This document shows, in pieces, positions 3,968 through 55,105 of a stretch of DNA of 64,000 nt (position 1 is its first letter; the number at the start of each line of letters is the position of its first letter). The notes below the pieces were generated by a model. That model saw only the letters and a list, made by a program, of their open reading frames with translations. It made no database searches and was not told where the DNA came from. Made by a program: the position numbers and the translations under genes. Origin of the DNA: Parvivirga hydrogeniphila (lineage in GTDB: Bacteria; Actinomycetota; Coriobacteriia; Anaerosomatales; Anaerosomataceae); NCBI RefSeq assembly GCF_023371205.1, contig NZ_JAMCCO010000001.1, forward strand, positions 430,662 to 494,661, in the 5' to 3' direction.

Positions 3968-4092
3968 TGCCGTCCGTACGAACCGGTGCTGAGCACGCAC
4001 TTCACGCGTACCACGACCGGCCGCTCTCGCTCGCTCAATCACGATGCGTTATGCTACGCATGAGTGCACTATGAGCCAGAACGGAGCGAGCA

Positions 4093-5121
4093 GTGGAGCC
4101 TGTCCGCTTGACGCAACTGTCCACGAAGTCCGGTTGAGCCGCCAAGTGGGGTCCGGGAGACCTCGCTGCGGTGCTCGAGAAGATGGCTCCGGGCAGCTCG
4201 GAGGACCTGATGGTCGGGTTCGAGACGTCCGACGACGCTGCCGTGTACCGGCTGGGCGATACCGCGGTGCTGCTCACGGTCGACTTCTTCACGCCGATGG
4301 TGGACGACCCGTACGACTTCGGGCGCATCACCGCGGCCAACGCACTTTCCGACATCTACGCGATGGGGGGCAGGCCGCTCACGGCAATGAACCTGCTCGC
4401 CATGCCGTGCTCGATCCCGGCGGAGATCACCGCGCGCGTGCTGCAAGGCGGCGCGGACAAGGTCCGGGAGGCCGGGGCGGTGATCGTCGGAGGCCACACC
4501 ATCGATGACAAGGAGCCCAAGTACGGGCTGTCGCTGATGGGCGTCGTGGACCCCGGGAAGGTCGTGCGGAACGTCGGCGCGCGGCCCGGAGACGTGCTCG
4601 TGCTCACCAAGCGACTGGGCGTCGGCATTCTGAACACCGCGCTCAAGCAGGGGCTCGAGACCGAAGCGTCGCTCTCTGAGGTCATCGAGAGCATGGCGCA
4701 CCTCAATGCGGCCGCTGCGGAGGCCATGCAAGAGGTCGGCGTGCACGCCGGCACCGACATCACCGGCTTCGGGCTGGCCGGCCACGCGCGGGAGATGGCG
4801 TTCGGCAGCGGCGTGGCGGTCGAGATCGAGCTCGCGAAGGTGCCCGTGTGGCCGGGCGTCGTCGAGTACGCGGGCCACGGCGTGCGTCCTGGCCGGACGG
4901 CCGACGTGCTCGCGTTTCTGGAGGAGTGGGTGGACTGGGGGCCTGCGGGCTTCGACTGGAAAGGCGTGCTTGCCGACCCCCAGACCTCGGGCGGGCTGCT
5001 CATGGCGGTGGAAGAGAGCAAGGCCGAAGCGCTGCTTTCGGCGCTGGCCGCGCGAGGCGAGGAGGCCGTCGCGGTCGGGCGGTGCATCGACGGGCGGCCA
5101 GGCGCCGTCCGCATCGTGTAG
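4093..5121 (+). CDS. selD: Selenide, water dikinase SelD, itself a selenoprotein (in-frame TGA)
   Basis: SelD makes selenophosphate from selenide and ATP, the selenium donor for selenocysteine. Without readthrough the frame appears to begin at 4171, but continuing upstream through TGA 4135-4137 gives the canonical SelD N-terminus ('LTQLSTKSG-U-AAKWGPG') starting at GTG 4093. That start has GGAG six bases upstream at 4083-4086. The TGA is codon 15, where other SelDs carry the catalytic Cys or Sec, and the essential Lys follows three residues later. Full length is 342 residues, normal for the family. 'DDAAVY' and 'LTVDFFTPMVDDPYDFG' are typical AIRS-fold ATP-binding motifs. A hairpin fitting a bacterial SECIS follows the TGA. 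yedF follows 26 bp downstream. Confidence 0.95.
4145..4167 (+). promoter_or_regulatory. Bacterial SECIS-like hairpin in selD
   Basis: Just after the TGA at 4135-4137, positions 4145-4153 can pair with 4159-4167 over nine consecutive base pairs (seven Watson-Crick, two G-U), closing a 5-nt loop CGGGA at 4154-4158. The loop starts 17 nt after the TGA and has G at its second position. This fits the known bacterial SECIS layout, in which SelB binds an apical loop with G in the first two positions placed about 16-37 nt past the UGA. The assignment is by structure and position, not by alignment. Confidence 0.8.
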
Positions 5122-5147: not shown

Positions 5148-5486
5148 ATGGGCAAGGTCGTGTTCATCTGCACGGACAGGATCGGGCACGGGGACGAGGA
5201 GCTCGGGCGCAAGCTCGCGGCGTCGTTCCTGTACTCGCTCGCACGGACGGAGCCGAAGCCGACCGCGGTGCTGTTCATGAACGCGGGGGTCCGGCTGGCG
5301 TGCGAGGGCTCTCCTGCGCTCGACGACCTGCGGCTGCTCCAGGAAGATGGCGTTGCGATCAAGTCCTGCGGGACCTGCCTGGACTACTACGGGCTGATGG
5401 ACAAGCTCGCCGTGGGCGAGGTCGGGAACATGAACGACACCGCAGCGACCTTCATGGGCGCAAGCGACGTCGTGACGATCGCGTAG
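5148..5486 (+). CDS. yedF: YedF-like DsrE-family selenium-metabolism protein, short form
   Basis: 112 residues starting at ATG 5148, with AGGAGG at 5135-5140. It is a single DsrE/F-like domain ('VVFICTDRIGHGDEELG', 'SCGTCLDYYGLMDKL'). The two Cys of 'SCGTC' match the position of the putative persulfide/perselenide site. YedF proteins linked to selenium metabolism usually have an N-terminal TusA/SirA domain followed by this domain, and here only the C-terminal domain is present. It lies 26 bp downstream of selD, supporting a role in selenium delivery or handling. The biochemical function of the family is not settled. Confidence 0.8.
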   Translation: MGKVVFICTDRIGHGDEELGRKLAASFLYSLARTEPKPTAVLFMNAGVRLACEGSPALDDLRLLQEDGVAIKSCGTCLDYYGLMDKLAVGEVGNMNDTAATFMGASDVVTIA

Positions 5487-5571: not shown

Positions 5572-6837
5572 CTAGTGGCCTTCGATCTCGCCGGAGCCTG
5601 GCACGTACACAGCTGCAGCCGCCGGGTCTGTGAGGTACAGCTCCACGAACGCGCGCACGTCGCCTGGGTAGCAGCCGTACACGTCCTTCAGCTCCTTGAG
5701 CGGCCGGTCTTGCTCCGAGGCGGGGACGCCGTAGACGGCGGTGAACGCTTCGGCAGGCACGCCAGCGGCCTCGACGACCTCTGAGATCGTGGTCGAGCCC
5801 TTGATGAGCGAGACGTCGAAGGAGCCGGGCGCGACCGTGCCGGAGGCGGGCGCTTCGCGCTCCATCTCCTGCTTGAGCGTCGGTTGCGACCACTCGAAGG
5901 CGCCCGCGGCTGTCGCGCCGGCAATCAACGTAGCGAACAAACCCACAGAGAAGACGCTTGCCGTCACGGGCGTGAGCGAGCGCGTGCCGGAGCTGATGGC
6001 GAGCGTATCGGCCACCGGACACGCCGCGACGCACTCGCCGCAGTCGATGCACTCAGGGTTGGAGACGGTCGTTGCGGCAGACACGTTCACATTCATCGGG
6101 CACGCGCGGTCGCACGCCTTGCAGTCGATGCAGGTTTCTGCGTTGCGACGGACCTTGAAGATGCTGAACCGCGAGATCAGGGCGAGGAACGCGCCCATCG
6201 GGCACGCGTACTTGCAGAAGAATCGGTCGTAGAGCAAAGAGCCGACGAGCGAGACGACGAGCACGGCAAGGCCGACGCCGAACTCGGCCACGAGCTCCGG
6301 CGAGGTGAGGTGCTGGTAGGCGACCCACGGGTCGTAGGGCCGTATGGCCAGATCGGCGGTCGTCCAGGCGAGTCCGAGCGACGCGGCCAGCACGACGTAC
6401 TTCAACAGACGCGCCGGCTTGTCGAGAGACGCCGGAACGCTCAGTCTGCGCCCGAAGATGCGTCTGCCAAGCCGCCCTGAGAGCTCTTGCAGGAAGCCGA
6501 GCGGGCAGATCCGCCCGCAGAACGCTCGCCGGAACACCAGCGCCACGGCGACGGTCGCGCCGAGCAAGAGCACGCTCGAAAGCGCGATGCGGCGCACGAG
6601 CGTGCCGCTGGAGATAAGGGACCAGAGCGTCTCGAGACCGCCGAACGGACACAGCGCGTCCACGCCCACGGGCCGACCGGCGCCGGCCCGCTGGTGGAGG
6701 ATGCCGAGCGCAGTCACCATGGCCAGCACGGCGGCCAGCACCGCCCATCGGACGATTCGGGCCGTGCGGCGCGGTCCCTTCGCGGCGAGTATCGGGCGGT
6801 CGCCCGGGCTCACGGTCTTGTCGCGCGTGGTGGTCAT
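5572..6837 (-). CDS. NapH/YccM-like polyferredoxin membrane protein
   Basis: 421 residues from ATG at 6837, preceded by GAGGAGGA. The likely topology is an N-terminal TM near residues 28-46, further TMs, then cytoplasmic ferredoxin modules. Four Cys motifs are visible: the membrane-proximal 'FCGRICPLG' and 'FCKYACPMG' typical of NapH/RdxA/YccM, plus two 4Fe-4S ferredoxin motifs 'CIDCKACDRACP' and 'CIDCGECVAACP'. A further TM and a soluble ~100-residue C-terminal domain follow. Such proteins pass electrons between quinol or soluble donors and redox enzymes. Lying inside the sel locus but on the other strand and divergent from selA, it may supply electrons to a selenoenzyme; that is inference. 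Confidence 0.8.
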   Translation of the reverse strand: MTTTRDKTVSPGDRPILAAKGPRRTARIVRWAVLAAVLAMVTALGILHQRAGAGRPVGVDALCPFGGLETLWSLISSGTLVRRIALSSVLLLGATVAVALVFRRAFCGRICPLGFLQELSGRLGRRIFGRRLSVPASLDKPARLLKYVVLAASLGLAWTTADLAIRPYDPWVAYQHLTSPELVAEFGVGLAVLVVSLVGSLLYDRFFCKYACPMGAFLALISRFSIFKVRRNAETCIDCKACDRACPMNVNVSAATTVSNPECIDCGECVAACPVADTLAISSGTRSLTPVTASVFSVGLFATLIAGATAAGAFEWSQPTLKQEMEREAPASGTVAPGSFDVSLIKGSTTISEVVEAAGVPAEAFTAVYGVPASEQDRPLKELKDVYGCYPGDVRAFVELYLTDPAAAAVYVPGSGEIEGH

Positions 6838-6935
6838 GGTTCCTCCTCGTCGAGCGGGGTCACTTCGTGAGCAGGATAACGACTGCTCGCGTACGCAAGG
6901 TGTGCTGGGTGTGCAGAAATCGTGAAGGCGTGCGC

Positions 6936-6963
6936 TTGTCGCTGCCCGCTGCTCCGCTAGAAT
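6936..6963 (+). promoter_or_regulatory. Likely selA promoter giving a leaderless mRNA
   Basis: TTGTCG (6936-6941), a 16-nt spacer and TAGAAT (6958-6963) resemble a sigma-70 promoter. The expected start of transcription falls on or beside the selA ATG at 6970, and no Shine-Dalgarno sequence is seen. A leaderless transcript would explain both facts; such mRNAs are common in actinobacteria. Confidence 0.55.
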
Positions 6964-6969
6964 GACCTC

Positions 6970-8361
6970 ATGGACATGCAGTCGCTTCTTCGAGCGCTCC
7001 CGAAAGTCGACCGCCTCTTGGAGCGCGACGACCTCAAGGCGCTGTGCGCGGTGCATCCGCGGGTGCTGGTGGCCGACGCGGTGCGCGAGACGCTCGACGA
7101 GCTCAGAGACGAGATCCGCGCAGGCGGCGAGCCCGATGTCTCCGAACACGCGGTCGCAGCGCGCGCCGCGATGCTGGCGGAGCGCATGGCGCGGCGGTCG
7201 CTCCGGCGGGTCGTCAACGCCACGGGCATCGTCGTCCACACGAACCTCGGCCGCTCGTGCCTCGCGAAGGCCGCCGTGGACGCGGTTGCGGAGGTCTCGG
7301 GTTCGTACTCCACGCTGGAGTACGACGTGGAGGCCGGCGAGCGCGGCAGCCGTCACGTGCACGTCGAGGAGCTCATCTGTCGGCTGACGGGTGCAGAGGC
7401 GGCGATGGCGGTCAACAACAACGCCGCCGCCGTGCTCCTATCGCTTGCCGGGCTCTCGCGCGGGAAGCGGGCCATCGTCAGCCGCGGGCAGCTCGTCGAG
7501 ATCGGCGGGTCGTTCCGCGTCCCTGACGTGATGCGCGAGAGCGGTGCGGTGATGGTGGAAGTGGGCACCACGAACAAGACGCACCTGCGCGACTACGAGA
7601 ACGCGATCACGCCCGACACGGGGCTGCTGCTCAAGGTGCACACCAGCAACTACCGCGTCGTCGGGTTCACCCAGGAGGTCTCCCTCGAAGAGCTCGTCGA
7701 GCTCGGCGCGCGGCACGGCGTCCCGGTGATGGAGGACCAAGGCTCGGGCGTGCTCGTGGACCTGCGCGAGTGGGGGCTGCCGTACGAGCCCACCATCGGC
7801 GAATCGGTTGCTGCGGGCGCAGACGTGGTGACGTGCTCGGGCGACAAGCTGCTCGGCGGCCCGCAGGCGGGAATCATCGCCGGGAAGTGGCACGTCGTGC
7901 AGGCGCTCAAGAAGCACCCGATGGCCCGCGCGGTGCGCCTCGACAAGATGACGCTCGCGGCGCTCGAGGTCACGCTCCGGCTGTACCTCGATCCGGAGCG
8001 TGCGCGGCGCGAGATCCCGACGCTTCGCATGCTGTCGGCACGTCTCGAGGAGATGCGCGAGCGCGCCGAAGCGCTGGCTGAGCGTGTCGCGCACGCGTGC
8101 GGCGATGCGTACGCGACTGGCACGGCCCCGGAGGTGTCGCGTGCAGGCGGCGGCGCCCTGCCGATGGCAGACATCCCGACCGTGGTCACGACCGTGGTTC
8201 CGTCTCGCATGAGCGTCGGCGAGCTCGAGGCGCGGCTGCGGTGCGGCGAACCGCCCATCATCACCCGCATCAGCGATGAGCGGCTGCTCATCGACCCGCG
8301 CACGCTGCTCGACGGCGACGAGGCCGCGATCGTCTCCGCGCTCGCGACGCTCGCCAGGTAG
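6970..8361 (+). CDS. selA: L-seryl-tRNA(Sec) selenium transferase
   Basis: 463 residues. SelA is a PLP enzyme that converts seryl-tRNA(Sec) to selenocysteinyl-tRNA(Sec) using selenophosphate. Visible family features are '[17 protein letters not shown]' (residues ~80-97), '[10 protein letters not shown]', 'VGTTNKTHL', '[12 protein letters not shown]' and the PLP-lysine motif '[12 protein letters not shown]' with Lys293. Length matches the family (about 460). ATG 6970 is preferred over the upstream ATG at 6962 because the -10 box ends at 6963. selB follows after 36 bp and is probably in the same transcript. Confidence 0.97.
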
Positions 8362-8397: not shown

Positions 8398-10305
8398 ATG
8401 TCCGCACCATCCCTCGTGCTCGGCACCGCAGGCCACATCGACCACGGGAAGTCTTCGCTCGTCAAGGCGCTCACTGGGACCGACCCAGACCGCCTGCCTG
8501 AGGAGAAGGAGCGGGGCGTCACCATCGAGCTCGGGTTCGCGCAGCTCACGCTGCCGAGCGGACGCTCGATGGGCGTCGTGGATGTGCCGGGCCATGAGCG
8601 CTTCGTGCGGCAGATGGTCGCAGGCGCTACCGGCATCGACGTGGTGCTCTTCGTTGTGGCGGCCGACGACGGCGTGATGCCGCAGACCCGCGAGCACCTT
8701 GCCATCATCGACCTGCTCGGCATTCCCGCCGGCGTCGTCGCGCTCACGAAGGCGGACCTCGTGGACGAGGAGTGGCTGGCGCTCGTCGCCGAAGACGTCC
8801 GGGAGCTCATCTCCGGCACGAGCATCGCGGGTGCGCCGATCGTGCCGGTGTCGTCCAAGACGGGGCAGGGCCTCGACGACCTGCTTGCGGCCATCGACGA
8901 AGTGGCCTCCGAGGCCGCGTCGCGGCACGCCGACCTCCCCATGCGGCTGCCGGTCGACCGCGTGTTCACGATCGCCGGTGCGGGCACCGTGGTGACGGGC
9001 ACGCTCTGGAGCGGGACGGCGGAGCGTGACGCGCAGGTCGAGGTGTACCCGAGCGGGCGGCGGGGCAGGATACGCTCCGTCCAGGTGCACGGGAACAGCG
9101 TCGAGAAGGCGCGTGCCGGCAACCGCGTCGCGCTGAATCTCGCCGGCCTCGAGCGCGACGAGGTCGAGCGCGGCGACGTCGTCGCGGAGCCAGGCTCGCT
9201 CGCCGTCACCGACCGCTTCGACGCGTACGTGACCTACCTGGCCTCCGAGGACAAGCCGTTCGAGACCGGCACGCGCGTGCATGTGCACCACGGCACGCGA
9301 GAGGTGCTCGGGCGCGTGCTGCTTATGGACGCCGAGGCGCTTGCGCCCGGCGAGAGCGGGTACGCACAGGTCAGGCTCGAAGAGCCGCTGATGCCGCGAT
9401 ACGGCGACCGCTTCATCGTCCGCCGCTACTCGCCGATGTGGACGATCGGCGGCGGCGTCATCCTCGACGTCTTGCCACCTCGCCGCACGCGGCTCAAGGA
9501 GCACGAGCGCGCGCTGCTCGACGCGCTGCGCGCGGGCGACCTCGGGAGCGCGGCCGTGGGGCTTCTGCGCTCGCGTGCGGTGCCGATGACGTCTGGGCAG
9601 GTGGCCATGGCGCTCGGACTGCCCAGGCCGCAGGTGGCCGACCAGCTCAACAGGGCGGCGCTGGAGCGCGTGAAGGTCGGTGCTGAGACCTACTTCGTGA
9701 CGGCAGAGGCGCTCGCGGACCTCGTGGAGGCCGTCGAACGAGAACTGATGGCCTTCCACGACGAGAACCCGACCGCCACCGGGATCTCGGCGCTCGCGCT
9801 TCGCGACCGCGTGGACCGGCGTCTCGACCCGAAGGTCTTTGACGCGCTCGTGGAGCGAGCGGTCGCCGCGGGCAAGGCCGCGGTCGCAGGTGGCGAGGTG
9901 CGTCACCCGCGCGCCGCCTCCGCTGCGCTTGCCGAAGAGGAGGCCGTCCGCGTACGGCTGCTCGCGCTTCTCGCCGCGCAGGGGCTCCAGCCCGAGGGGA
10001 TGTCCGAGCTCGCTGCGGCGGCCGGTGCACCGCTCGACGTCGTGAGGCGCGTCCTCACGAAGCTCGTTGCGAGCGGGGACGTGGTACGCGTGGGGCCCGA
10101 CCTGCATTTCCACGCTGCGGCCGTGAGCGAGGCGCGCGAGCGCATCGTGGCGTACCTGCGCGAGCACGGAACGATGCTCGCGAAAGACGCGCGGGACGTC
10201 ACGGGCAGCAGCCGCAAGTACGTGGTGCCGCTGCTGGAGTACTTCGATGTACAAGGTGTCACGAAGCGGCAGGGCGACGAACGGGTGCTGGGTCCGAGAG
10301 CGTGA
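8398..10305 (+). CDS. selB: Selenocysteine-specific elongation factor SelB
   Basis: 635 residues with AGGAGG nine bases before ATG 8398. SelB delivers Sec-tRNA to UGA codons by binding the SECIS hairpin. The GTPase motifs are clear: '[10 protein letters not shown]' (P-loop), 'DVPGHE' (G3) and 'TKAD' (G4). EF-Tu-like beta-barrel domains follow (e.g. '[16 protein letters not shown]'), and the C-terminal ~250 residues are repeated winged helices ending near '[18 protein letters not shown]', the SECIS-binding part. Length fits the family. The tRNA-Sec gene begins 65 bp downstream, completing the machinery. Confidence 0.97.
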
Positions 10306-10370: not shown

Positions 10371-10467
10371 GGAGGCGGATGGGTCCTGGTGGGCTCCGCG
10401 GTCTTCAAAACCGTCGTGGGGCGTGAAGAACGTCCCGGGTGCGTTCGATTCGCACACGCCTCCGCCA
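10371..10467 (+). tRNA. selC: tRNA-Sec (anticodon TCA)
   Basis: 97 nt including an encoded CCA. The acceptor 5' strand GGAGGCG pairs with CGCCTCC, followed by discriminator G and CCA. The anticodon loop CTTCAAA gives anticodon TCA at 10405-10407, which reads UGA. The D-stem is of the six-pair tRNA-Sec type with the same single T-C opposition I recall from E. coli selC. The long variable arm is GGGGCGT paired with ACGTCCC around a GAAGA loop, and the T-arm is GTGCG-TTCGATT-CGCAC. The eighth acceptor pair appears to be a G-A mismatch, which is odd for an 8+5 bacterial tRNA-Sec. Confidence 0.95.
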
Positions 10468-17708: not shown

Positions 17709-17752
17709 GCGGCAGAGCACGGTCACGACACGCCTGCTCCGCCACAAAGCGA

Positions 17753-17784
17753 GACCGGCCGGTCCCTCCGGGGGCCGGCCGGTC
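17753..17784. terminator. Bidirectional hairpin between the SDR and cold-shock genes
   Basis: A perfect 10-bp stem (GACCGGCCGG at 17753-17762, CCGGCCGGTC at 17775-17784) with a 12-nt loop lies between two convergent genes. There is no T-tract; it probably stops or stabilises both transcripts. Confidence 0.6.
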
Positions 17785-17804
17785 CGTATGCGCTCTGGCA
17801 CGGC

Positions 17805-18008
17805 TTAGAGCGGGCGCACCTGCGTGGCCTGCTGCTTGCCGTTCTGGCCAGTGGCCTCCGTGAAAGACACGGCCTGACCCTCGTCGAGGGTCTTGAAGCC
17901 CTCGCCCTGGATCTCGGAGAAGTGGACGAACAGGTCGTCGCCACCCTCGCGCTCGATGAAGCCGTAGCCCTTGTCAGGGTTGAACCACTTGACTTTACCT
18001 TCAGCCAT
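17805..18008 (-). CDS. Cold-shock domain protein (CspA family)
   Basis: 67 residues from ATG at 18008, the standard Csp length. '[17 protein letters not shown]' carries RNP-1 and 'DLFVHFSEI' carries RNP-2, the RNA-binding aromatic patches of the OB-fold. It acts as an RNA chaperone. The upstream leader is about 110 nt if transcription begins near the -10 box at 18121-18126; long leaders are typical of cold-regulated csp genes. Confidence 0.97.
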
Positions 18009-18120
18009 TCCAAACCTACCTTCCGCCCTAACGCGGGGCACAACAAAATGACGTGACCGACCGCCAGAATGCGGTGTGTCACGTCGCAATCCTGCGAGCC
18101 CCTCTGGCTCGCCTGCAGGG

Positions 18121-45263: not shown

Positions 45264-45326
45264 CCGCGTCTCTTGAGCCGCACGCACGGCCGGTGTATGC
45301 TCGAATGCGTCCGCGCGAGCGGACGA

Positions 45327-45416
45327 CCTCCGAGTTCCGGAGTCCTACAGCGGCTGGTCACCGCCACGGAGCCGGGACCGATAGGGTCGGGACGGGAAAC
45401 CGCCCGGCCTCCCGTG
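45327..45416 (+). promoter_or_regulatory. Structured leader, possible Moco/Tuco-type riboswitch
   Basis: The ~90 nt before the tungstate-transport operon form several nested hairpins: CTCCG-AGTTC-CGGAG; CGGCT pairing with AGCCG around GGTCACCGCCACGG; GACC-GATAG-GGTC; and GGGACGG-GAAA-CCGCCC with a GNRA tetraloop. The ACCGCCACGG segment and GAAA loop recall the molybdenum-cofactor riboswitch, which is often placed before tungstate/molybdate transport and moa genes. The assignment is by eye only. Confidence 0.5.
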
Positions 45417-45433
45417 TTCGGAAAGGAGCGTGC

Positions 45434-46297
45434 GTGTCAGACCATCGCATGTGGCTCGCCTTCGGGCGGGCCGTCGCTGTCGCTGCCGTGGTCGTGGCGT
45501 TCGTCGCGCTCCAGACCGGCTGCGCGTTACGCCAGACGCAGAAGGCTTCGCCGCAGCGGCTCGTGCTCGCCACCACCACGTCCACCCAAGACTCCGGCCT
45601 GCTCGACGTGCTCGTGCCTGCCTTCGAGACGGCGCATCCGGAGTACGCGGTGGAGGTGATCGCTGTGGGCACGGGCGAGGCGCTGCGGCTCGGCGAGCAG
45701 AAGGACGCGGACGTGCTGCTCGTGCACGCGCCTGAAGACGAGGCGGCGTTCGTCGCGGCGGGGCACGGCATCGAGCGCCGTGACGTCTGCTACAACCGCT
45801 TCGTGCTGGTGGGGCCGGCATCGGACCCTGCCGGCGCGGCTCACGCCGCAGACGCGGCCGACGCTCTCAAGCGGATCGCGGCACGCCAGGCGCTCTTCGC
45901 GTCCCGCGGCGATGACTCCGGCACGCACAAGAAGGAGCTCGCCCTGTGGAACGCCGCGGGCGTGAAGCCGGGCGGCGCGTGGTATCTCGTCACGGGCCAG
46001 GGCATGGGCGAGACGCTCAAGATCGCCTCAGAGAAGCAGGCGTACACGCTTTCCGACGAAGCGACGTTCCTGACGATGCGAGGCTCGCTCGACCTAGCGC
46101 AGCTCTTCGATGCCGACCAGTCGCTTCGAAACCAGTACGGCGTCGTCCCGGTGACAGGCGCGAAGAACGAGCGAGGCGCGCGCGAGTTCGCGGACTGGAT
46201 CTGCGGTCCTGATGCCCAGCGTCTGATCGCTCGCTTCGGCGTCGATGAGTTCGGGCGCTCGCTGTTCGTCCCGAACGCGCAGGGAGGCGGATCGTGA
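45434..46297 (+). CDS. tupA: Tungstate ABC transporter substrate-binding lipoprotein TupA
   Basis: 287 residues from GTG 45434, with AGGAG at 45424-45428. The signal peptide ends with 'ALQTGC' (lipid-attached Cys30). 'LATTTSTQDSGLLDVL' is the TupA/ModA-type oxyanion-binding start, 'SRGDDSGTHKKELALW' contributes further ligand residues, and 'YTLSDEATFLTM' is diagnostic for tungstate/molybdate binders of the TupA group. It is lipid-anchored outside the membrane and is followed by tupB (4-bp overlap). Confidence 0.92.
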   Translation: MSDHRMWLAFGRAVAVAAVVVAFVALQTGCALRQTQKASPQRLVLATTTSTQDSGLLDVLVPAFETAHPEYAVEVIAVGTGEALRLGEQKDADVLLVHAPEDEAAFVAAGHGIERRDVCYNRFVLVGPASDPAGAAHAADAADALKRIAARQALFASRGDDSGTHKKELALWNAAGVKPGGAWYLVTGQGMGETLKIASEKQAYTLSDEATFLTMRGSLDLAQLFDADQSLRNQYGVVPVTGAKNERGAREFADWICGPDAQRLIARFGVDEFGRSLFVPNAQGGGS

Positions 46298-53950: not shown

Positions 53951-55105
53951 ATGCCCCACGACGGCGTCATCTACCTCGACCACGCCGCGACTTCCTGGCC
54001 GAAGCCTCCGGAGGTCCTCGAGGCTATAGGGCGGGCGCTCGGGCCTGCTGGTGGCAATCCGCACCGGAGCGCGCACCGCCTGGCGCTCGCTGCGGCGCGG
54101 CTCGTGCTCGAATCGCGGTCAACGGTGGCTGCCTTCCTCGGCGTCGCCGACCCGCGCGACCTGCTGTTCGTGCCTGGCTGCACCTTCGGGCTGAACATGG
54201 CGCTCAAAGGTCTGCTCGAGCCGGGAGACAGAGCGGTCGTATCCAGCGTCGAGCACAACGCGGTCGTCCGTCCGCTCGCGGTCCTCGAGGCCTCCGGGGT
54301 CGAGGTGGTGCGGATCCCTGCCGACGACGCGGGCCGCATCGACGTGGACGCGGCCGAAGCGCTCATCGCTGCGGCACCGACGAAGGCCGTCATCTGCCAG
54401 CACGCGTCCAACGTCACCGGAGCAATCCATCCGGTGGGGGACCTCGCCGACATCGCCCACGAGCACGGCGCGGTGCTCGTCGTGGACGGCGCACAGGCCG
54501 CAGGGCACCTTCGGGTCGACATCGCGGCGCTCGGAGCGGACGTGTACGTCGCGTCCGGACACAAAGGGCTGCTCGGCCCGGCCGGCGTCGGCGTCGTCTA
54601 CCTCGCGCCCGGACTCGAGGTGCGCGAGCTGGTGCAAGGCGGAAGCGGCGGAGATTCCGGTTCTCTTGCGATGCCATCGGTGCGTCCTGACCGCTACGAG
54701 GCTGGCACGCCCCCTCTGCCTGCGATCGCGGGGCTCGCGGCGGCCGTCGAGGTGCTTGCTCGGGAGATGGACTCCCTCGTCGCCACGGAGCAGCGGCTGG
54801 TGAAGCGATTGGTCGCGGGTCTGGCAGGGATTCCGGGCGTGCGCGTCCTTGGGCCGGCGCCTGGCGAAGAGCGCGCGCCTGTGGCGAGCATCGTGCACGA
54901 GGCCATGGAGCCGGACCGGCTCGCATACGAGCTCGACTCGCGGTACGGCATCGCGGTCCGCGCCGGGCTGCACTGCGCGCCTGCCGCGCACGCGGCCGTC
55001 GGCACCCTCGAGACGGGCGCCGTGCGGTTCAGCATCGGCCGCGGCGTCACGGAAGCCGACGTTGATGCGGCCATCGAGGCGGTACGCGAGGTGTGCGAGC
55101 GGTGA
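53951..55105 (+). CDS. Class V aminotransferase, cysteine desulfurase-like
   Basis: 384 residues. 'IYLDHAATSWPKPPEVLEAI' (N-terminal), 'SSVEHNAVVRPL', 'QHASNVTGAIHPV', 'VVDGAQAAGHL', the PLP Lys205 in 'ASGHKGLLGP' and a candidate persulfide Cys342 in 'AGLHCAPAAH'. This is the SufS/Csd-like group often called 'cysteine desulfurase family'. It may supply sulfur to FdhD/MOSC or, like CsdB, release selenium from selenocysteine. It starts 3 bp after mogA and overlaps DUF3343 by 4 bp. Confidence 0.9.
   Translation: MPHDGVIYLDHAATSWPKPPEVLEAIGRALGPAGGNPHRSAHRLALAAARLVLESRSTVAAFLGVADPRDLLFVPGCTFGLNMALKGLLEPGDRAVVSSVEHNAVVRPLAVLEASGVEVVRIPADDAGRIDVDAAEALIAAAPTKAVICQHASNVTGAIHPVGDLADIAHEHGAVLVVDGAQAAGHLRVDIAALGADVYVASGHKGLLGPAGVGVVYLAPGLEVRELVQGGSGGDSGSLAMPSVRPDRYEAGTPPLPAIAGLAAAVEVLAREMDSLVATEQRLVKRLVAGLAGIPGVRVLGPAPGEERAPVASIVHEAMEPDRLAYELDSRYGIAVRAGLHCAPAAHAAVGTLETGAVRFSIGRGVTEADVDAAIEAVREVCER

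Follow-up and report, generated by a model that had tools for sequence, protein, structure and literature searches.

Introduction

Among bacterial selenoproteins, SelD (selenophosphate synthetase) and FdhA have the widest distribution (PMC1794560). In a 2015 reference set of prokaryotes, 19% of the SelD genes encode selenocysteine (Sec), always at the catalytic position discussed below (PMC4561486). The dependence of such a SelD on itself was already a subject of discussion in 2006, and some of the species considered then have no other selenoprotein (PMC1794560). The published rules for bacterial SECIS hairpins (bSECIS) allow a loop of 3-9 nt with a G in the first two bases followed by a G, a stem of 4-16 bp, a distance of 16-37 nt from UGA to loop and an energy of at most -7.5 kcal/mol (PMC13188914). 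A Sec-containing SelD with its TGA and hairpin is an arrangement long described in many bacteria; less familiar is the place that the hairpin occupies in the lineage described here, which differs from that in most other lineages sampled. This hairpin position may be the only part of our analysis that specialists find of interest.

We analyzed a stretch of 64,000 nucleotides from a Coriobacteriia bacterium, hereafter the window, together with 27 genomes of its family and further relatives. We conclude, with a probability of about 97%, that the window encodes a Sec-type SelD, the UGA of which would be read as Sec through a hairpin immediately downstream. Sequence evidence alone could hardly make a stronger case for a Sec-SelD.

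A selD frame interrupted by a single UGA

The frame that extends on the plus strand from GTG 4093 to TAG 5121 is open, its sole interruption being the TGA at 4135-4137. When this codon is read through, the gene (4093-5121) encodes a selenophosphate synthetase of 342 residues, in which Sec is residue 15. The product scores 378.5 bits against TIGR00476 (cut-off 125) and 336.3 bits against PRK00943 (cut-off 299). Residue 15 corresponds to the catalytic Cys in two aligned proteins, the solved SelD structure 3u0o and the Aquifex enzyme 2yye, and the U/C-x-x-K motif is present as U15-A-A-K18, aligned with GCGCK in 3u0o and GCAAK in 2yye. The ATP/metal-binding Asp motifs DDAAVY, ALSDIYAMGG and TDITGFGLAGH are present as well, aligned with 3u0o. 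This is the only SelD of the genome. A search of the genome for a second, Cys-type SelD found none, the two weak matches being distant (29% and 28% identity) and devoid of TGA. The nearest named genomes, which are each 93% identical in SelD, are a Slackia-labelled MAG and Coriobacteriaceae bacterium EMTCatB1, the source of which is a thermophilic electromethanogenic biocathode (PMC5347234, PMC7943316).

A GGAG at 4083-4086, 6 nt before GTG 4093, is the likely Shine-Dalgarno sequence, and most family members have GGAG, AGGAG or GGAGG before the equivalent start, which lies at or near 14 codons before the Sec codon. Within the family, the codons upstream of the TGA show 144 synonymous and 65 nonsynonymous changes, as in coding sequence. 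The first in-frame ATG, GTG or TTG past the TGA is GTG 4171, 26 codons after GTG 4093, and the mechanical ORF call gives a shortened frame of 316 aa on the plus strand (4171-5121). The earlier note on this DNA had claimed that the normal N terminus of SelD is only reached by reading through the TGA and that a standard caller would lose 26 residues; the frame, the catalytic-site alignment and the ORF call agree with it on both counts. An ordinary gene caller would misplace the start of this gene, and our reading puts it right.

Conservation of the TGA and Sec/Cys variation

We then compared the site among relatives. In 25 of the 27 family genomes, the SelD match reaches the site and contains exactly one internal stop, which is TGA. 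The other two are G020, without a match, and G011, with two matches, the N-terminal one containing TGA. In G011, selD lies in two frames (loci L028/L030, G011:C23:18439-19354), an N-terminal piece with the TGA and a separate C-terminal piece, and this split appears to be a frameshift or an assembly error. TGA is common to all full-length SelD genes of the family. Among the loci fetched from public genomes and relatives, in which some genomes enter twice under two collections, the site codon is TGA in 111/113 and TGC in 2/113. Forty further loci of the class, picked on purpose, divide into 20 with TGA and 20 with TGC or TGT, the latter being those chosen for their stop-free matches. TAA or TAG occurs at the site in none of the relatives read; the in-frame UGA stands where homologues have Cys, and the site is either TGA or TGC/TGT.

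The form of SelD goes together with the presence of SelA. Within the class, a SelA above the family cut-off was found in all six Sec-SelD genomes tested and in none of the 20 Cys-SelD genomes, one of which carries a weak, sub-cut-off relative. The Cys-SelD genomes of families f18 and f22 (loci L116-L135) keep SelD without SelA. Selenophosphate would have to serve another use in these genomes, putatively in selenouridine or in selenium-dependent molybdenum hydroxylases.

When homologues are aligned with the TGA treated as U, Sec falls on the catalytic Cys/Sec position. The central claim of the earlier note, that this SelD is a selenoprotein, is supported by the retention of TGA in every full-length family member, the restriction of the site to Sec or Cys, the linkage to SelA and the synonymous constraint on the hairpin described below. 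Together, these comparisons document Sec-SelD as universal among the full-length genes of an uncultured family, and as tied to SelA within the class.

A predicted SECIS hairpin after the UGA

The best fold of 4135-4180 is a 9-bp stem closed by a CGGGA loop, with an energy of -23.9 kcal/mol and a z-score of -2.59, 3 of 200 shuffles being as good. The predicted SECIS hairpin spans 4145-4167 on the plus strand, with arms at 4145-4153 and 4159-4167, the loop at 4154-4158 and a conserved core in which 4148-4153 pairs with 4159-4164. It satisfies the published bSECIS rules, with a loop of 5 nt, a stem of 8-9 bp, a spacing of 16 nt and an energy of -10.7 kcal/mol for the hairpin alone. It departs from the consensus in that its spacing is at the lower limit and its loop has GGG, not GGU. 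An Rfam scan found no model that matches the hairpin. The earlier note had described nine base pairs and a CGGGA loop. The fold was recovered, but only about six of the nine pairs are conserved: a set of 42 distinct sequences from Coriobacteriia retains the inner six or seven pairs but not the outer ones (A-U in 3/42, G-C in 19/42). With the outer three less conserved, the stem that functions probably comprises about six pairs. An alternative fold that places GGU in the loop (UGG-GGU-CCG, three pairs) was rejected, since it leaves an invariant GAC unexplained and is broken in one relative (L070).

Within Coriobacteriia, compensatory double changes in this stem are few (one cell) because the stem is nearly invariant. 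Since covariation is therefore uninformative there, we used synonymous-codon null models instead. In the family, the codons for Gly14 (GGT), Gly20 (GGT), Pro21 (CCG) and Asp23 (GAC) are each the same in 27/27 members. GGT accounts for merely 194 of the 1029 Gly codons in the genes of the family set, yet it is used without exception at codons 14 and 20. At codon 22, the wobble base of which is the last loop base, all four Gly codons are used. Nowhere in the gene is synonymous constraint stronger than in the 7-codon windows that start at codons 13-17, and in Cys relatives this constraint is absent. When synonymous codons were drawn according to each gene's own usage, the expected mean paired fraction in Sec relatives was 0.752, compared with 0.979 observed, and none of 1000 resamplings reached the observed value. 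Pairing in the Cys forms is not above the resampling expectation, and the four inner pairs are formed in 0/22 of them. This freezing of silent sites in Sec but not in Cys relatives supports the hairpin as the SECIS that the earlier note had taken it to be.

Alternative readings of the UGA

Could the TGA at 4135 be a true stop, with translation starting at GTG 4171 and producing a shortened SelD without its catalytic residue? The frame from that codon is open and has a GGGAG 11 nt upstream. Codon 27, though, is GTG in just 18 of the 27 family members and GTC, GTA, GTT or ATA in the others, and the frame before the TGA shows protein-level conservation and has a Shine-Dalgarno sequence of its own. 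Relatives that start past the TGA, which the earlier note had named as evidence against its reading, were not what we found: their starts lie upstream, with ribosome-binding sites of their own, and codon 27 is not conserved as a start. With a site that is never TAA or TAG and that is Cys where SelA is missing, we consider a true stop extremely unlikely. Even closer to negligible is the idea that the TGA arose by an error of sequencing or assembly, or that the gene is a pseudogene with a decayed Cys codon. It draws on the fact that TGC and TGT are a single base away from TGA, but the same TGA is common to independent genomes across the order and the class, and outside this codon the frame is unbroken and conserved.

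A different kind of objection accepts that UGA is read as Sec and disputes the signal, the hairpin being then a by-product of protein conservation and high G+C content. The codons for GP-GDL pair easily in a GC-rich genome, the formate dehydrogenase SECIS has a GGU that is missing from this loop, and the z-score of the fold is only -2.6. Against this, the silent positions of the stem are frozen although codon usage over the gene as a whole is different, the effect is gone in Cys relatives, and the resamplings fell short of the observed pairing in every case. We regard recruitment by a signal other than this hairpin as very improbable, and favor the reading in which the hairpin downstream of the UGA directs Sec insertion.

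Sec machinery and its neighborhood

SelA, SelB and tRNA-Sec are all present in the genome, and their genes lie downstream of selD on the plus strand of the window. The selA gene (6970-8361) encodes L-seryl-tRNA(Sec) selenium transferase (TIGR00474, 613.7 bits), selB (8398-10305) encodes the Sec-specific elongation factor (TIGR00475, 379.1 bits), and selC (10371-10467) encodes a tRNA-Sec with a UCA anticodon, found by ARAGORN and matched by Rfam RF01852 with 74.9 bits over 10371-10463. Of the 27 family genomes, 26 have a tRNA-Sec model match above the cut-off; with scores near 47-54 bits, some of these matches could be other long-armed tRNAs. In G009 and G010, the best tRNA-Sec match is on another contig (L036 and L038, versus L196 and L195), unlike its place beside selB in the window, and selA-selB still adjoin selD.

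Downstream of selD is a gene for a yedF-like selenium-associated protein (5148-5486, plus strand), which matches only positions 86-194 of TIGR03527, the C-terminal part, the N-terminal part of the model being missing. In many relatives, too, yedF adjoins selD. A long frame with polyferredoxin-type Cys motifs lies on the minus strand between yedF and selA (5575-7374), so that selD-yedF is parted from selA-selB; in several relatives yedF and selA are close together. Elsewhere in the window, 53951-55105 encodes a protein of the class V aminotransferase family, the family of cysteine desulfurases, which is a possible candidate for the selenium donor of SelD. A molybdenum/tungsten cofactor riboswitch (RF01055, 58.6 bits) is found at 45316-45445, just upstream of a solute-binding protein gene (45446-46297), and a cspA thermoregulator match at 17752-18090 on the minus strand is below threshold (42.3 bits versus 78, E 5e-8).

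Other selenoprotein genes and the dependence of SelD on itself

The genome contains at least three further TGA genes, one for a formate dehydrogenase and two for peroxiredoxins. The formate dehydrogenase alpha subunit (L156, 307-3828 minus strand; G000:C2:360705-364226) has its TGA at the expected catalytic site, in the motif ARIUHSSTV, followed by a strong hairpin with a GGUCUU loop. The two AhpC/TSA peroxiredoxins (L186, G000:C1:54303-54701; L185, 414315-414683) have a TGA at the peroxidatic site, in the motifs DFTFVUPTEI and PRANTPGUTHEA. We therefore rejected SelD as the sole selenoprotein of this organism. Searches of the genome for FlpD/FrhD and for GrdB found none, and selenouridine synthase SelU had no match above the cut-off. 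A scan of the window for other frames running through TGA returned only ordinary junctions of neighboring genes and noise; it is insensitive, because selD itself falls below its limit, its upstream part being so short.

Not every family member has the same set. In G009, of the same genus, no formate dehydrogenase of this family was detected, and Sec-SelD and both peroxiredoxin genes are kept. G009 and G019, high-completeness family genomes, both have Sec-SelD and no molybdopterin formate dehydrogenase match; in these two, the Sec machinery would be used for SelD, for peroxiredoxins and for any other targets that escaped detection. The loops differ as well. Family formate dehydrogenase hairpins mostly have GGUC or GGUU in the loop, one of the peroxiredoxin genes has a GGU at a similar distance while the other has none within 50 nt past its TGA, and the GGU seen in this genome's formate dehydrogenase SECIS is missing from the CGGGN loop of selD. 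More than one loop would therefore seem acceptable to the SelB of this organism.

These elements suggest the following sequence of events. Ribosomes would start at GTG 4093 and reach the UGA at 4135, where the hairpin just downstream would recruit SelB-GTP-Sec-tRNA(UCA), presumably through SelB binding to the loop. Sec would then be inserted at the catalytic residue, equivalent to Cys17 of Escherichia coli SelD, and the full-length enzyme would be expected to make selenophosphate, which SelA would use to form Sec-tRNA. Since SelA needs selenophosphate for Sec-tRNA, SelD would require its own product in order to be made. The autocatalytic loop proposed in the earlier note is logically sound in that SelD both needs Sec and makes its selenium donor, a circular dependence that is real on paper. 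Such a dependence is nothing unusual, and it is not the only purpose of the machinery, which would also serve the formate dehydrogenase and the two peroxiredoxins.

Hairpin position across lineages and comparison with known systems

The protein itself resembles known Sec-containing SelD (SPS2-Sec) in family, Sec position and machinery. It differs in coming from an uncultured Coriobacteriia lineage near strain EMTCatB1, and we found no functional difference.

To compare hairpin positions, we used an ungapped codon alignment, in which a second, distal hairpin occupies columns 31-45; the sequences come from one similarity search and were not placed on a tree. Coriobacteriia of the window's type are represented by 59 distinct sequences. 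The proximal hairpin, with its loop 16 nt after the UGA, has its four inner pairs in 55 of them, and the distal hairpin, with its loop 33 nt after the UGA, is formed in none. Other phyla are represented by 36 distinct sequences, in 24 of which the distal hairpin is formed (five or more of its six pairs) and in 16 the proximal one, these counts including 12 sequences with both. The four Sec sequences of family f18, from the same class, form the distal hairpin, and the proximal one is not formed in this register. In the distal hairpin, pairs are often exchanged (G-C, C-G, A-U and U-A all occur at columns 33-43, for example), and its pairing exceeds both synonymous null models. A few sequences of Nitrospirae and Clostridia look to have a putative hairpin in between.

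This distribution raises the possibility, which we judge evenly balanced, that the functional SECIS has moved within one orthologous gene. It would be proximal (16 nt, CGGGN) in Coriobacteriia of the window's type, distal (33 nt, GUU/GGU) in many other phyla, present in both places in some and seemingly intermediate in a few. Sec would have been kept while a neighboring hairpin replaced the recoding signal, perhaps via an intermediate with two hairpins. Differing positions in a single gene offer a natural series for studying how SECIS elements are recognized by SelB and come to be replaced in evolution. Gene and UGA are the same as for the selD SECIS of other phyla, and the hairpin of the window likewise follows directly after that UGA. 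But while selD of many Chloroflexi, Marinimicrobia, Firmicutes and other MAGs has a well-paired distal hairpin with a GUU/GGU-type loop, the Coriobacteriia of the window's type do without it.
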